Positions 55,033 through 61,376 of a stretch of DNA of 64,000 nucleotides are shown one piece after another (position 1 is the first letter of the stretch; every line of letters starts with the position of its first letter). Source of the stretch: Candidatus Nanosynbacter sp. TM7-075. GTDB taxonomy: Bacteria > Patescibacteriota > Saccharimonadia > Saccharimonadales > Saccharimonadaceae. The stretch is taken from assembly GCF_022828255.1 (NCBI RefSeq), contig NZ_JAJQJW010000002.1, positions 62,001 to 126,000 of the forward strand, in the 5' to 3' direction. Made by a program: the position numbers and the translations under genes. The notes under the pieces are model-generated. The model was given only the letters and a program-made list of their open reading frames with translations, made no database searches and was not told the origin of the DNA.

Positions 55033-55719
55033 TTATTTAATTTCCAGACCGCCTAAAATACACTCACCCTTCAGATATAGAGTCTTTTTGGCAGAATCTT
55101 TAGGTAGAGTTTTGTCATCAGTTCCACCCAAAAATCCGCGCACTTCGTTCTTAACAATCACATCGTCTGGCAAAGTAATATTAATGCCACCGCAAAATGT
55201 AAAAATTTCAATCACAGAACCGTCTTTAATCTTTGCTTGACGCAAATCCAAATCCACGCCGCCAAATATTGCAACCAACGAACCGCCAGTATAATCACCT
55301 TTTACGGCGTCTTCTTCGCCCCAAAAACAAGCAATCTTCTCATTACCTGCGCAGTCTTTGTTCAGCTTTTTAGAACGCTTAACACCCTTAGGACTAGTAT
55401 TAAACATCATTGCCAAACCAGCAGCAATCAAAACTACAGGCCAGAACACTTTCCAGACACTAACGTCAACTATTCCGTAAGAATTTAAGCCAATCAGAAC
55501 ACCAATCGCAATCAATAATAATCCCCAAATCCACGCCGTTTTATTTCGATAATTGAATATATTCACCAGCCCAGACAATACAAATCCTGCAGCCCAAACC
55601 GTACCCCAGAAAATATCCCAGCTAATGTTAATAATTTCGAGGTTCTTCAATAGTAAAACCCCGCCGAGCGCCACGACTACAATGCTCAAAAACGCTCTAA
55701 TCAGAGAACTTTTCTTCAT
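55033..55719 (-). CDS. LiaF-like membrane protein (cell-wall stress family)
   Basis: The 228-residue protein has four hydrophobic segments (about 8-28, 34-55, 62-80, 88-107) and a C-terminal beta-rich domain (about 125-228, with ACFWGEEDAVKGDYTGGSLVAIFGGVDLDL). These correspond to the DUF5668-like membrane part and the LiaF C-terminal domain. LiaF proteins hold a stress kinase inactive in Firmicutes, but no LiaRS is adjacent. TGA-TAGAAT lies 6 nt before the ATG (leaderless). Confidence 0.82.
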   Translation of the reverse strand: MKKSSLIRAFLSIVVVALGGVLLLKNLEIINISWDIFWGTVWAAGFVLSGLVNIFNYRNKTAWIWGLLLIAIGVLIGLNSYGIVDVSVWKVFWPVVLIAAGLAMMFNTSPKGVKRSKKLNKDCAGNEKIACFWGEEDAVKGDYTGGSLVAIFGGVDLDLRQAKIKDGSVIEIFTFCGGINITLPDDVIVKNEVRGFLGGTDDKTLPKDSAKKTLYLKGECILGGLEIK

Positions 55720-55747: not shown

Positions 55748-56737
55748 TTAACGTTTTTTAAATTGAACAGTTTTTTTGTTCCGCTTTGATTTTATGATAA
55801 TTATCACTATCAAAATAATGAACAAAAGTATTCCACCGCCAATCATCATTAGCGCTGTAGTTGATGGCCAGAAGAACAATTCTTTTGGCTCGGCGGTTTT
55901 TGTGATTAGCTCATTTTTGTCCTGGCTAATTCCCCACTCGCCAGCCTTCTTTTTATAGGAAATCGACAATTCTACCTTATATTTTCCTCCCCAAAACGGC
56001 GCCAAATTGCTATCAAAATTAAACTGCCGCGTTTCATTCGCAATCATCGCATTCACGCCACCGTTTTTATAGACAACATTCCCCATCGGGTCTTTCACAA
56101 CCAGCTTTACGTCAACATCAGCCGACACATTGCCAGAATTTTTTAAGGCGATTTCATACAATTGACTACTGTTAGAATTCTTAACGTTAAACTTCTCAAT
56201 CGTCACGTCGCGGTGAATATCACCAGGAACTGTTATCGCCATACGGATAGCCTGACGAGTCTGAACTTGAATGCCGCCAGCATTATTTGACGACTGCTTA
56301 ACCTTCCGCTGAACAACCATACATGCATTATGCTCGCCAACATCTGCTTTGCTTGGGACATTTACCGTAAAATCAACAAGCGTGTTCTCGTTCGCGCCAA
56401 GAGTCACCTCTTTCTTAGAGACAGAAATCCATTTGCCCGCACCAACTTTATCCTCCGACTTCTCCTTGCAAGTCATATCACCAGTCGTCGTAACCGTACC
56501 GTCAACCGAATAAACTTCAATCGTTTCTTCTTTATCAGACCCGTTTTGAACATACAATTGGTCAGATTTCGAATCGCCACCAGAAAGATTATAGATGAAA
56601 ATTGAGCTTGTCCTGGGATTATTCGGATCAGGATTTGCTGGTCGACCACCAATACCGTTAGCAGACACCGACATAGGCAAAACCAGCCCTGCAATCATCG
56701 CCACTCCAATAACCTTACTCCACAACGAACTCTTCAT
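55748..56737 (-). CDS. DUF916-like WxL-interacting surface protein
   Basis: The 329-residue protein has a signal peptide (about 1-26, ending SVSANG). An Ig-like domain (about 40-150: SDQLYVQNGSDKEETIEVY, WISVSKKEVTLGANE, VDFTVNVPSKADVGEHNACM) fits DUF916. A second beta domain (about 160-280: DVTIEKFNVKNSNSSQLYEIALKNSG, in two parts) is DUF3324-like, and one membrane helix (about 293-316) with a basic tail ends it. This is the layout of Firmicutes WxL-interacting proteins (CscA), which bridge peptidoglycan and WxL proteins. GGAGG precedes the start, and TGA-TATAAT lies 25 nt further up. Confidence 0.8.
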   Translation of the reverse strand: MKSSLWSKVIGVAMIAGLVLPMSVSANGIGGRPANPDPNNPRTSSIFIYNLSGGDSKSDQLYVQNGSDKEETIEVYSVDGTVTTTGDMTCKEKSEDKVGAGKWISVSKKEVTLGANENTLVDFTVNVPSKADVGEHNACMVVQRKVKQSSNNAGGIQVQTRQAIRMAITVPGDIHRDVTIEKFNVKNSNSSQLYEIALKNSGNVSADVDVKLVVKDPMGNVVYKNGGVNAMIANETRQFNFDSNLAPFWGGKYKVELSISYKKKAGEWGISQDKNELITKTAEPKELFFWPSTTALMMIGGGILLFIILIVIIIIKSKRNKKTVQFKKR

Positions 56738-56783
56738 ATCCCTCCTTAAAAACCTATTATGCTTATTATATCAATGTTACACA

Positions 56784-56817
56784 TAAAAGAATAGACACTC
56801 ATCAGAATATCTATTCT
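56784..56817 (-). terminator. Hairpin terminator after the small WxL-like gene
   Basis: AGAATAGA / TCTATTCT stem with a 14-nt loop, followed by TTTT on the minus strand. Confidence 0.65.
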
Positions 56818-56842
56818 CGCTTAATAAACTAAGTCTTTTTTA

Positions 56843-57499
56843 TTAAATAGCCGTGACAGTTTGAGTCATTGGAAGAATGTATGTACCCGATAGCTGACCA
56901 GCCGGAATGTCCTGCTTTAGACCAATGCCCGTAATGTATCCTTCCCATATTTTGTCAGCACCGGCTGAAGCGGACATTAAGGTAATCGGAGTGCTTCCAG
57001 AAAATGACGCTGAGCTACCTTTTGTAATACCGGTAAGTGTAGTCGAAGATCCAGACTCTGGAGTAACCGTGCCTGCTGACGGATCGACAGTTAGTCGACC
57101 TTGAGCGGCGGTGCCGTTATATTTGTACTGCCTACCACCTGCTGCACCCCATACGCCAGTTCCTGGAGTAGTTGCATTGAGGGTCAGAGTCCAACCGTTA
57201 TCTGCAGCGCCTGTATTTAATACATAAATACGATCCGTGTTATTACCAAACGTACCCGTAGACAGCTGAGCAGTCCCCTTAACAGTTACCGCGCTCATCG
57301 CGAATGTTGGAGGATTTACAGGCGTGAGTCCAGGAGTGTCGGTAATGACAGTAGTCAATGTTCCAGGGTTGATTGTCTGAGAAAGCTTAGAATTAGCGGT
57401 AGACACCGCATTAGCAACAGAGGAGTTCGCCATACTATACAATCCCAATAGACCAATCACGCCTACGCTCGCAACGATCAATAATGTTAACTTTTTCAT
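56843..57499 (-). CDS. Small secreted WxL-like surface protein
   Basis: The 218-residue protein has a signal peptide (about 1-26, cleavage near SSVANA). The motif ANSKLSQTI follows the cleavage site. A WxL-like beta domain (about 70-218) contains GWTLTL (the W-x-L), GRQYKYNG, LTGITKG, a distal IWEGYI and the end GTYILPMTQTVTAI. The whole domain aligns by eye with the C-terminal domain of the RCC1 protein two genes away. No membrane anchor or sorting signal, so retention would rely on non-covalent binding, as for Firmicutes WxL proteins. AAGGAG precedes the ATG. Confidence 0.78.
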   Translation of the reverse strand: MKKLTLLIVASVGVIGLLGLYSMANSSVANAVSTANSKLSQTINPGTLTTVITDTPGLTPVNPPTFAMSAVTVKGTAQLSTGTFGNNTDRIYVLNTGAADNGWTLTLNATTPGTGVWGAAGGRQYKYNGTAAQGRLTVDPSAGTVTPESGSSTTLTGITKGSSASFSGSTPITLMSASAGADKIWEGYITGIGLKQDIPAGQLSGTYILPMTQTVTAI

Positions 57500-57558
57500 T
57501 TTTTCTCCTTACTTAATTGATTTAATTTATTACATTATAACTTATTATGCTTACTTTT

Positions 57559-58266
57559 TCATTTATCCCTCTTTTTCTGTTTTTTAACAATAAATAACAT
57601 AATGAACGCCGCAACAATTACACCAATACCAGCAGCCATAATCATCCATAAATTAATTCCCGTATTAGCCAAAGCCTTACTTATCTCTTTAACAATCTTT
57701 GGAATACCAATAACATCTTCAATGGTCTTTTCCACGGTCTTTTTCGGAGTAGTAGATGAAAAATCAGCAAACCGCACTATTTCCGGGGATGTTGCATTAG
57801 CCTTCAGTTTAGCTGTAACACGACCGTTATGGGTGTATTCTGGAACTGGCGGCATAAAATTATCACCTGGATGATTATTCTGCCAATTTGAAAAATCCAA
57901 CACCCATATATTTCCGTTAACTTTAAGCTTGCTATCCCGTCCCAAAACAAAAGTCCTACCACCAAACTCAACCTTCAAATCGTGCTGACCCGTCGCGGGA
58001 TTAGCTACCGTATGCACCGCATCATAAACGCCATACACCAGCAGATCTTTCCCATTTACCAAATCAAACTTAGAGAATTTTGGCGGAAAAATCGGACAAA
58101 TTGACTCATTCATCTGGCTGCCAGTTTCCAGGGAATCATGAGCGCAATCAGTAATCACTTGCGACAAATTAGAATTAGCCGACGAATCTGCAAAAGCCGA
58201 ATAAGGACTACTCAAAGTAGCTAGTAATGTTATAACGATGAATAATTTTTTTACTCTATTTTTCAT
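57559..58266 (-). CDS. Surface protein with LANTG sorting-type C-terminus
   Basis: The 235-residue protein has a signal peptide (about 5-28, ending AFADS), then SSANSNLSQVI, which echoes the small WxL-like protein. A beta-rich middle (about 60-165) follows. The C-terminal signal is LANTG, a hydrophobic stretch (about 205-226) and KKQKKRDK. LAxTG is a known sortase recognition variant. It matches the small LPxTG protein (CscD) of Firmicutes csc clusters. The ATG at 58266 has AAGG 6 nt before it; the TTG at 58272 is less likely. Two cysteines near residues 40-60 could form a disulfide. Confidence 0.78.
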   Translation of the reverse strand: MKNRVKKLFIVITLLATLSSPYSAFADSSANSNLSQVITDCAHDSLETGSQMNESICPIFPPKFSKFDLVNGKDLLVYGVYDAVHTVANPATGQHDLKVEFGGRTFVLGRDSKLKVNGNIWVLDFSNWQNNHPGDNFMPPVPEYTHNGRVTAKLKANATSPEIVRFADFSSTTPKKTVEKTIEDVIGIPKIVKEISKALANTGINLWMIMAAGIGVIVAAFIMLFIVKKQKKRDK

Positions 58267-58274
58267 ACTCAACC

Positions 58275-60695
58275 TTATTGCGCTGTTACCGTTAATGTCA
58301 TTGGTAGTTCATAAGTTCCTGGTTTTTGATATGCTGGAATAGTCTGGTTTAATCGAACGTTCCGTAGCAAAAATGCGCACCCCAATTGGTTAGTTGACCC
58401 GCTGCTGCTCATCAACGTAACGCCGTTAGCCGTAGCAGTCCCTACCTTAAATTGAGAATCAACGCCCTTTGATATTCCTGATATTTGGCAAGTTGAACCG
58501 CTCAATGAACTACCCGAAGCTAAGACAGATGATGCGCCAAAATTGACAGACAGAAATCCCTGATCGCCATTAGTGCCGTTGAACATATACGATTCCGTAC
58601 CACCAGTTCGCTTCCACTTGGCGGTCGCGCCGTCAGATGCCGACAACACAACACTCCACCCAGAGCTGGTCTGTGTATTCGTCACTTCAATTTGCTTCGA
58701 GCTTGAGTTGGACAAGAGGGCGCTGGTGGCTACGCTGCTATTACTTATAGTCGAGTTGCCAAACTTCGTACCAGTATCCGTAATTGTAGCGCCAGCATTA
58801 TCTCTAAAACGAATATCTAACGACCCAGGAGCAGTCTTAAATTCTGGATACATTGTGTAGCTATCAATGCTAGATCCAGGAGCGACAGTCGTGTCAGTTG
58901 CTACACGGACGCAATAATTTTCGTTCCTATCAAGCCCTTTATCGACAAGCGCCAAATCCCACACACCCACTTCGCCAGCAGATATTTTTTGCGCATTCGT
59001 GAACGTTCCAGCCACTCCGCTTTTTCTCACCAGACTTTGAGGTCGAGAAGCGATAGCTCCTGCCGGCAATTCTGGATCAGTCGAGTTGCTATTGATATTA
59101 GTGCCGTCAGCGGGACCGCTCGCAGAATAAGCAAGTTTTGACACTCCGGTCACGACTTGCCAATCTGAACTACTTACCGCCGAACAAGTTGCCGTGCTAC
59201 CCTTTTTTGCATATTCGACACGCAGCTTCATTGACGAGGATTCAACGGCTCCCCCTGGAGGTGCTATTAGCGCAGGACGCATGACAGGACTATTACTCGA
59301 CTGGCCATTCCCTATCTGACCCTTGTTATTATTACCCCAACAATACATCTCACCTGTACGTAAAGCGCATAAAAAGTCTTTACCTGCATACATAGAAGTT
59401 TCACCGGAACTCGTAAATGGAACATTCACTTTTACAGGGGCGGGCAAATATCCCGTAATAGACCCGTTACCCATTTGACCCTTAGAATTAGCACCCCAAC
59501 AATAAATTTCGCCAGTGTTTAATACCATACACGTAAATTCGCCACCAGCGTAAACATTTTTAACAGTCTTCCCTCCAGAAAGGATACTACTACCAAAAGA
59601 AACTCTTGAAGCAATATTTCTATAGCCCATTGCTGTAACACCCAACTGACCCTTGGTATTTTTTCCCCAACAATACACTTCTTGACCGCCAAAAATAACA
59701 GCACAGGCATGTGAATCACCAGCAGATATTGACTCAACTTTTTTTCCATTAAAACCTTTGACTTCAGTAGGATATTGAGTTCTACCAGCAGCAAGTCCTA
59801 CTCCAGTCCTTCCCGTAATATTAGACCCCCAGCAGAATGCTGTGCCTTCAACTGTCGAAGCACACGTAAATTTATCTCCTGCAACAACCTGTTTAACCGA
59901 TTCCGTCCCAAAGTTATTCATATTAACTGCTGTTGGCGTGGTTGAACCTAAGAGTACGTCACGACCTAATTCTCCATTTACACCTCTACCCCAACAGTAC
60001 AATTTTCTCTCCGAGTTAAGCGAACAAGTATGCTCATTACCTGCCGCAATTTGAGAGACGACTGTGGTTGCGAATTCCCTAACTGGATATGGAGCATTCC
60101 TCTGAACTATACCATTATCCCCTAGTCTTCCAGCCAACCCATAACCCCAGCAATAATCTTTATCGTCAGAAGCAATTACGCAAGTGTGATAATAACCAGT
60201 AGTAATCTGTTTTATAGTCTTACCGTTGAGTACGTCTTGTGTATATACAGGTACTGGGACCGTTGATGAGGTGGTTGAATTAGTACCAAGAACTCCATAT
60301 TGACCATTACCCCAACAATAAACACTATCATCCGACATAATGGCGCAGTTATGCTCATACCCGCTTCCGTACTCAGCTAATTTTTTAAAATATACACTCT
60401 TATTTTGCAGACCAACCCTCAGCCTAAAATCAGCGCCGACTTTTGGTAATGTGGCAACGGTGTTGGTATTTGCCAACGGACTGCCTGGATTAATACCATT
60501 GGACGATTCGTATAACCGATAAGAAACTTGCTCCACTTCAACCTGCTTGCCACCACTAGGAATAGTCGCACGACTTTGTTGCGAGATCAAAAACATAAAT
60601 CCTAAAGCTGCGCTAACGACAATAAAACCGCCAAGAATAAAAAATCTCTTGGCTTTACGGTCTTTTATTATTGATAACGTTCTATTATGTTCCAT
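58275..60695 (-). CDS. Large surface protein: seven RCC1 repeats plus WxL-like domain
   Basis: The 806-residue protein has a membrane anchor or signal peptide (about 19-40), then a region (about 50-100) ending RLRVGL. Seven RCC1 blades occupy about 105-475, each with a cysteine pair such as HNC...YCWG. A beta domain (about 484-622, LRVEYAKKGSTATC ... NYCVRVATD) and a C-terminal WxL-like domain (about 625-806: GWSVVL, ISGISKG, GTYELPMTLTVTA) follow. The RCC1 propeller appears inserted into one beta-sandwich split before and after it. I use ATG 60695, which lies 6 nt after a weak TATACC; the frame is open further up. It starts the WxL-type operon. Confidence 0.85.
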   Translation of the reverse strand: MEHNRTLSIIKDRKAKRFFILGGFIVVSAALGFMFLISQQSRATIPSGGKQVEVEQVSYRLYESSNGINPGSPLANTNTVATLPKVGADFRLRVGLQNKSVYFKKLAEYGSGYEHNCAIMSDDSVYCWGNGQYGVLGTNSTTSSTVPVPVYTQDVLNGKTIKQITTGYYHTCVIASDDKDYCWGYGLAGRLGDNGIVQRNAPYPVREFATTVVSQIAAGNEHTCSLNSERKLYCWGRGVNGELGRDVLLGSTTPTAVNMNNFGTESVKQVVAGDKFTCASTVEGTAFCWGSNITGRTGVGLAAGRTQYPTEVKGFNGKKVESISAGDSHACAVIFGGQEVYCWGKNTKGQLGVTAMGYRNIASRVSFGSSILSGGKTVKNVYAGGEFTCMVLNTGEIYCWGANSKGQMGNGSITGYLPAPVKVNVPFTSSGETSMYAGKDFLCALRTGEMYCWGNNNKGQIGNGQSSNSPVMRPALIAPPGGAVESSSMKLRVEYAKKGSTATCSAVSSSDWQVVTGVSKLAYSASGPADGTNINSNSTDPELPAGAIASRPQSLVRKSGVAGTFTNAQKISAGEVGVWDLALVDKGLDRNENYCVRVATDTTVAPGSSIDSYTMYPEFKTAPGSLDIRFRDNAGATITDTGTKFGNSTISNSSVATSALLSNSSSKQIEVTNTQTSSGWSVVLSASDGATAKWKRTGGTESYMFNGTNGDQGFLSVNFGASSVLASGSSLSGSTCQISGISKGVDSQFKVGTATANGVTLMSSSGSTNQLGCAFLLRNVRLNQTIPAYQKPGTYELPMTLTVTAQ

Positions 60696-60767: not shown

Positions 60768-61376
60768 CTAGAACAATTGGCTGCCGAATTTGGCGATTAT
60801 CGCGACAATTACCACGACAACCAACGATATTATAGTAAGCACATCATATCCACCACCAACGATCTTCTGCGCACAACGACAAGAGATATTTTTCTGTAGA
60901 ACATTATAGCGCGTCAAACCGAGTATAATCATCAGCATTCCAAGATCCAAGGTCAAACACCATGGACAAAGTACACCAATTTCAACGTAGCTCATATAAA
61001 ACATCCAAATAGCAAATATCATTCCGATGATAGCACCAGCCTGCGCCGCCTGCATAAACCACTTCGGAAACTTTGCTCCCGCCAACAACGCCACTGCAAT
61101 TGTTACCATAACAGGCAAAGTCATCACGCCGATAAAACTGTTTGGAAATCCTAAAATAGCCGCCGACCAATGATTCGCCACCGCCGAACAGCTCAGAGCC
61201 GAGCTAAAATCGCAACTTAATACAGCATGAGAGTTTTTTGCTAGTTCTAAGGCTTCAATAGACAATACGAATGACGCCAATAACCCTAAACCACTACCGA
61301 CAAGCATTATAAACGCCGCCAAATTTTGCTTTTTCAAATCTTCGTGGAATAACCAGTTTTTGATTTTACTAAACAT
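60768..61376 (-). CDS. Vitamin K epoxide reductase (VKOR) family disulfide-forming protein
   Basis: The 202-residue membrane protein has about five helices, the loop cysteine pair C55/C63 (LSCDFSSALSCS) and the active-site C137-P-W-C140. VKOR replaces DsbB in many bacteria and reoxidises a thioredoxin-like partner to make disulfides outside the membrane. It lies 72 bp upstream of the RCC1 protein with seven cysteine pairs, an obvious client. It overlaps the thioredoxin-fold gene by 8 bp. Four more helices and a Cys pair (ISCRC) near the C-terminus. Confidence 0.92.
   Translation of the reverse strand: MFSKIKNWLFHEDLKKQNLAAFIMLVGSGLGLLASFVLSIEALELAKNSHAVLSCDFSSALSCSAVANHWSAAILGFPNSFIGVMTLPVMVTIAVALLAGAKFPKWFMQAAQAGAIIGMIFAIWMFYMSYVEIGVLCPWCLTLDLGMLMIILGLTRYNVLQKNISCRCAQKIVGGGYDVLTIISLVVVVIVAIIAKFGSQLF

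Follow-up and report, generated by a model that had tools for sequence, protein, structure and literature searches.

A diverged WxL surface cluster in an oral Saccharibacterium that probably displays a propeller-shaped protein towards the host bacterium

WxL systems are described almost entirely from Lactobacillales and Bacillales, and in the published model of their assembly a gap in the WxL domain is filled in parallel by a strand of the WxLIP protein (PMC10599100). A csc/WxL cluster of Firmicutes holds one WxLIP, one small WxL protein, one large protein with a C-terminal WxL domain and a sortase-type protein, all provided with signal peptides and encoded by adjacent genes on the same strand. 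A carbohydrate role was first proposed for Lactobacillus/Firmicutes csc clusters in the 2006 account (PMC1534035), a passage of which gives CscD as very short (90-140 residues) and attributes its connection to the other csc proteins to 'as yet unknown interactions'. Here, we describe a cluster of this composition in a 64,000-nucleotide stretch of Candidatus Nanosynbacter sp. TM7-075 (the window, in whose positions all coordinates are given), where four neighbouring genes on the minus strand (55748-60695) are transcribed in the order large WxL, CscD-type, small WxL and WxLIP. The cluster is real, conserved and under selection, a diverged csc/WxL cluster in an unexpected group, and the surface complex that it encodes, known mainly from Firmicutes, probably displays a propeller-shaped protein towards the host. 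For Saccharibacteria that host is another bacterium, a setting unlike that of the Firmicutes clusters.

Comparison with the csc/WxL cluster definition (PMC10599100) showed that the four window genes adjoin each other on the same strand. A preliminary description of the window, made from the sequence alone, had matched them member by member to the Firmicutes clusters; all four consecutive open reading frames (ORFs) were found in their places and the match holds overall, with the CscD member as the loosest. The protein described there as DUF916/DUF3324-like and membrane-bound matches PF06030 (DUF916, WxLIP_PGBD) with an E-value of 3.4e-8 and 34 bits against a cut-off of 27.3, PF06030 is matched by all eight members of the WxLIP alignment A2, and the solved EfmWxLIP1 (9i1y, 9i25) aligns to residues 26-273 of the window protein at about 1e-6. 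A signal peptide and a C-terminal transmembrane (TM) helix are indicated by hydropathy maxima around residues 17 and 300. Behind this helix a LysM domain is found in 7 of the 8 A2 members and, by profile count, in 32 of the 35 named loci introduced below; the three loci without it (L106, L117 and L134) are each truncated or frame-broken, and the window copy is intact and without LysM.

Two alignable WxL-like domains, one in the small protein and one at the C-terminal end of the large protein, had been described, and this was borne out, as the quoted motifs are present and phmmer relates the two at 4e-15, far above chance. Motifs common to both domains are GWTLTL/GWSVVL, GITKG/GISKG and GTYILPMTQTVTA/GTYELPMTLTVTA; the first W-x-L is retained in the small protein only (GWTL), the large protein having GWSV. 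Among 286 genomes sampled across the phylum, 10 have PF13731 (WxL) matches, 5 of them above the cut-off, and nine of these 10 genomes have a WxLIP at E <= 1e-30, the tenth (G081) having a weaker one. Eleven PF13731-matched WxL proteins of the candidate phyla radiation (CPR) were compared with profile A1 of the window family: those of L067 and L072, with 23 and 21 bits for PF13731 (cut-off 25), match A1 as well, and the remaining nine do not. A bridging profile made from nine of eleven CPR WxL proteins (two long ones excluded), some of them below the PF13731 cut-off, scored 69.4 against the window family (E 9.6e-11 over 153 columns) and 56.3 against Paenibacillus WxL (E 1e-8), all such profile-comparison E-values applying to single comparisons. 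The best of 400 shuffles reached 22.3 in the former case and the best shuffle 21.5 in the latter, and unrelated and reversed controls scored 11-16. Because the scores far exceed those of shuffles and controls, the two domains are, as judged from profile homology, diverged WxL domains. Significant matches to DUF916 and WxL, which the preliminary description had proposed as a check, were thus obtained directly for PF06030 and by way of the CPR proteins for WxL, PF13731 itself giving no direct match. A direct comparison of untrimmed profiles of Paenibacillus WxL and the window family gave E 1.6e-6 with the signal peptide included; both profiles were therefore trimmed, and the score of 29.4 was then narrowly above the best of 400 shuffles (26.6). 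BLASTP and single-sequence hhalign between Paenibacillus WxL and the window family were not significant, and nothing usable came from searches of Pfam, NCBIfam and PDB sequences with the small WxL protein or its profile, or of the PDB with the Paenibacillus WxL profile.

Scanning of species genomes with the WxLIP pattern resulted in 35 named loci, 16 of which carry Saccharibacteria, Saccharimonadia or TM7 in their titles; among the others are Doudna-, Colwell-, Falkow-, Magasanik- and Peregrinibacteria and Microgenomates. A small WxL-like gene lies directly ahead of WxLIP in 33 of these 35 loci across the CPR (32 by the distance rule, plus L117 with its broken frames), and the conserved co-occurrence anticipated earlier is therefore found. 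The two exceptions are L132, which starts at a contig edge, and L113, where WxLIP stands alone between VKOR and IleRS and the small-large pair sits on a separate contig. A large WxL gene is inside the fetched stretch in 22 of the 35, and the usual order is small, WxLIP, large, as against large, CscD, small, WxLIP in the window. When 16 whole genomes were inspected, 12 had exactly two WxL-like domains, three had one and one was frame-broken. In the phylum sample, the WxL-like domain (1e-10) occurs in 12 of 286 genomes, 11 of which also have a WxLIP (1e-30). The cluster is thus accessory and not a general feature, and its patchy presence, which extends to the relatives considered below, indicates an accessory adhesin and not a universal one. 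In the open-access literature, we found no account of WxL or DUF916 proteins in Saccharibacteria, and nothing related on WxL together with donor strand or on DUF916 together with the CPR.

The CscD-type protein had been presented as a short protein with an LANTG tail. The tail stands, scoring 19.4 bits with the LPXTG anchor TIGR01167 (cut-off 15.9), whereas the shortness does not, the length of 235 amino acids (aa) being outside the Firmicutes range of 90-140 aa. Sortases are present in 22 of 22 related genomes. Just past the signal peptide, a motif [LFY]xQxI was found in 31 of 40 small WxL proteins and in 7 of 9 CscD-type proteins of the fetched loci, compared to none of 24 large WxL proteins, none of 57 WxLIPs and 10 of 347 other ORFs (those with a hydrophobic N-terminus; ORFs <100 aa were excluded and identical proteins counted once per class). 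The count for CscD is partly circular, since the CscD profile covers the N-terminus. Seven of the 10 motif-bearing other ORFs are themselves CscD-like with a C-terminal TM helix; the one from L133 had already been counted as the CscD of L058, hence six are new, and to these the circularity does not apply. Five of the six adjoin a large WxL gene, a position unused in the search, and the sixth, in L140, lies directly behind WxLIP.

That the large protein ends in a second WxL-like domain was correctly seen in the preliminary description, but a seven-repeat RCC1 propeller had been overlooked (PF00415, 1.7e-55; PF25390, 2.8e-67). As each repeat has a cysteine pair ending in CWG, the propeller is probably disulfide-stapled, and the VKOR encoded next door is a possible source of the disulfides. 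In comparison with L106, no part of the window's large protein is less conserved than the propeller (329/378 identical, 87%; other parts 94-97%). In the large protein of L102 (G288), RCC1 was seen by BLAST. Nanosynbacter lyticus TM7x offers a parallel: a passage in PMC12206443 describes PilX2 of its type IV pilus 2 as a type IV pilin with a seven-blade RCC1 propeller, and the deletion of pilX2 lowered host binding from about 10.6% to 4.6%. Both cases concern a surface RCC1 propeller on a Saccharibacterium, that of PilX2 carried by a type IV pilin and that of the window by a WxL-domain protein. A pilin-like ORF of G001, the nearest of the genomes compared with the window, has seven CWG repeats with 31% identity to the window propeller, and we read it as PilX2-like. 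Separately, G201 (L146 2288-5494 and 6735-9641) encodes two pilin-like proteins with 12 and 13 CWG repeats close to further pilin-like ORFs. A plasmid of Paenibacillus urinalis (NZ_CP118110; L103 5851-10783) resembles the window in that genes for DUF916, WxL and an RCC1-containing large protein adjoin; in contrast to the window, its small WxL is above the Pfam cut-off, the WxL domain of its large protein reaches 20.8 bits (cut-off 25), and its RCC1 match is weaker. Relative to Firmicutes csc clusters, the window differs by WxL domains below Pfam detection, by loss of the second tryptophan and of D-x-R-G, by the longer CscD and by the propeller.

All four genes evolve under purifying selection, with ratios of nonsynonymous to synonymous divergence (dN/dS) of 0.12-0.22 versus L106. 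The synonymous divergence itself (dS) amounts to 1.27 for the small WxL gene and to 0.16-0.23 for the other three. Within one block of the small WxL gene, from about 57350 to 56850, nucleotide identity to two close relatives drops to 43-72% in 100-base steps, as compared with 81-99% in the flanks, alignment ends aside. The first 46 residues, motif included, are nearly identical. Because of this drop and the high dS next to a near-identical start, we conclude that the body of the small WxL protein has been exchanged between strains with the motif kept, which fits an exposed part.

Taken together, we think it reasonably likely that this diverged WxL/WxLIP (csc) cluster of an oral Saccharibacterium provides a wall-bound platform displaying an RCC1 adhesin to the host bacterium. 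WxLIP would be exported and tethered through its C-terminal helix and, as we infer from published Firmicutes models, would hold the WxL domains by lending a beta strand. Both the small WxL-like protein and the large protein, the latter by its WxL-like domain, would be seated on the wall and on the WxLIP platform. Sortase may fix the CscD-type protein at LANTG, and this protein may dock via the N-terminal motif that it has in common with the small WxL protein. From the platform, the propeller would face outwards and act at short range as an adhesin towards the host bacterium, beside a type IV pilus whose PilX2 bears a similar propeller. The likeliest role is contact with the host.

Several observations weigh against such a platform. 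Single-sequence searches matched the small protein of the window in only 8 of 61 relatives, 3 of 9 genomes of the genus and 1 of 40 high-quality genomes. PF13731 matched none of the window proteins, 0 of 15 such domains at E <= 1 and 0 of 15 genomes; the second W-x-L is lost, TQTV and TLTV standing where TWxL is expected, and so is the D-x-R-G ahead of the first motif (NTGAADNGW), D-x-R being retained in several CPR intermediates. As to the DUF3324 half of the earlier label, PF11797 (DUF3324, WxLIP_HBD) has no Pfam match in the window WxLIP, but the alignment to EfmWxLIP1 runs through residues 26-273. An LAxTG motif is present in only 3 of 13 CscD-type proteins listed, and Pfam scans of 13 large proteins detected RCC1 in only three (window, L055/G124 and L107). 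Finally, the LysM of relatives' WxLIPs (L055-L061, L106-L140) lies on the expected cytoplasmic side, which the proposed topology does not explain.

The same complex might instead serve the epibiont's own envelope, or the capture of sugars or other polymers, and we regard this as possible, though on balance unlikely. The carbohydrate role put forward in the passage on Firmicutes csc clusters cited above (PMC1534035), the LysM on the WxLIP of most relatives and the spread of the cluster over CPR lineages for most of which no host is known speak for it. However, the WxLIP of the window is without LysM, its large protein has a propeller and not a recognised glycan-binding domain, and that propeller is the very part which varies most between relatives.

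A donor-strand, pilus-like assembly, in which WxL clusters, most plainly those of these epibionts, would be the wall-bacterium counterpart of chaperone-usher pili, seems to us rather doubtful. Here WxLIP, tethered to the membrane, would act as a chaperone built of two Ig-like domains in the manner of PapD/FimC, and small WxL subunits would be chained into a shaft, the N-terminal motif of one in the groove of the next. CscD, with the motif and no WxL domain, would be the anchored base, and the large WxL protein, with the domain and no motif, the tip adhesin that holds on to the host bacterium with its RCC1 propeller; strains would exchange the body of the shaft subunit and keep its docking strand. 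The distribution of [LFY]xQxI, frequent in small WxL and CscD-type proteins and absent from large WxL proteins and WxLIPs, agrees with these roles, as does the published parallel WxLIP strand in the WxL gap (PMC10599100). In the AlphaFold2 (AF2) model of the small WxL protein, with a mean predicted local distance difference test (pLDDT) of 86, the N-terminal segment is placed outside the sandwich, and the top fold matches listed are donor-strand pilins, cannulae and tubes; among the 50 fold matches listed in either list there is no WxL chain, which weighs neither way. The CscD-type model was poor (pLDDT 55) and left out of the fold search. Chaperone-usher pili and archaeal cannulae would thus share with the small WxL protein, by weak fold matches, a beta-sandwich with a free N-terminal segment, but neither is matched by sequence in Pfam or the PDB, and the likeness is put forward as one of working principle only. 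WxLIP has no Pfam match to an usher or a PapD-like chaperone, for which no dedicated search was made and of which an usher is not expected.

It is very improbable that the C-terminal domains of the small and the large protein have nothing to do with WxL and form an unrelated sandwich of pilin or cannula type that lies beside WxLIP by chance, since the missing Pfam WxL match, the pilins and cannulae as structural neighbours and the narrow margin of the trimmed direct comparison are set against the bridging-profile homology, the matches of L067 and L072 to both A1 and (below the Pfam cut-off) PF13731, and an organisation of small, large and WxLIP genes that is the same as in csc clusters.

The positions of the features are compiled in the table. 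VKOR flanks the cluster at one end, and at the other end lie a LiaF-like gene and IleRS. The LiaF-like membrane protein gene (55033-55719) follows immediately behind WxLIP and is also present in G001; no LiaF-like gene was found at E <= 1e-8 in fetched loci other than that of G001. The window and G001 (locus L117) share 99.5% identity in FtsZ and 98.6% in IleRS, and residues 1-258 of the window WxLIP have 95% identity to the WxLIP of TM7 oral taxon 352 SAG3 (L106). In G001 itself, the cluster (L062 9130-12205; L117 6754-9829) has broken frames despite the high identity, through either sequencing error or decay. As 7 of the 8 matches among relatives fall in genomes outside the high-quality set, we weighed the possibility of contamination and rejected it for the window, G001, G124, L107, L111 and L113, where FtsZ, VKOR or IleRS adjoins the cluster. 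Promoter- and terminator-like sites showed no excess over shuffles (17 versus 15.4 and 6 versus 5.4, respectively).

Table. Features of the csc/WxL-type cluster and its surroundings in the 64,000-nucleotide window
Feature	Position	Strand	Remarks
Large WxL protein (CscC type)	58275..60695	-	806 aa from ATG at 60695; signal peptide, RCC1 propeller, C-terminal WxL-like domain
RCC1 propeller	59262..60374	-	seven repeats, each with Cys pair C-x(8-10)-CWG; Pfam PF00415/PF13540/PF25390; Cys spacing
WxL-like domain of large protein	58278..58841	-	phmmer 4e-15 to small protein; alignment A1
CscD-type protein	57559..58266	-	235 aa; signal peptide, N-terminal motif, beta-rich middle, sorting tail; 100 homologues
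N-terminal motif SANSNLSQVITDC of CscD-type protein	58144..58182	-	just past signal peptide
LANTG sorting motif of CscD-type protein	57658..57672	-	sequence motif
Small WxL-like protein (CscB type)	56843..57499	-	218 aa; 312 homologues; AF2 pLDDT 86; WxL profile homology
N-terminal motif TANSKLSQTINPG of small WxL	57362..57400	-	just past signal peptide
First W-x-L motif (GWTL) of small WxL	57185..57196	-	alignments A1, A3
Small WxL gene block swapped relative to L106 and L117	~56830..57380	-	approximate bounds
Terminator-like hairpin behind small WxL gene	56787..56818	-	site class no commoner than in shuffles
WxLIP (CscA type)	55748..56737	-	329 aa; signal peptide, WxLIP_PGBD, C-terminal TM, no LysM
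VKOR	60768..61376	-	PF07884 6.6e-31; neighbour retained in several relatives (synteny)

The cluster extends WxL systems into the CPR. A passage in PMC12206443 proposes close-proximity adhesins for the grip of epibionts on their hosts, and the window cluster, carrying a propeller fold already tied to host binding in TM7x, is a concrete candidate for such a grip after first contact by the pilus. The N-terminal motif shared by CscD-type and small WxL proteins offers a hint in the sequence at the way in which CscD is linked to other proteins of the cluster. Ca. Minimicrobia naudis has a shortened relative of CscD, and as this organism has, according to a passage in PMC8694215, been grown in co-culture with Schaalia odontolytica, tests of the proposed host contact may be feasible.

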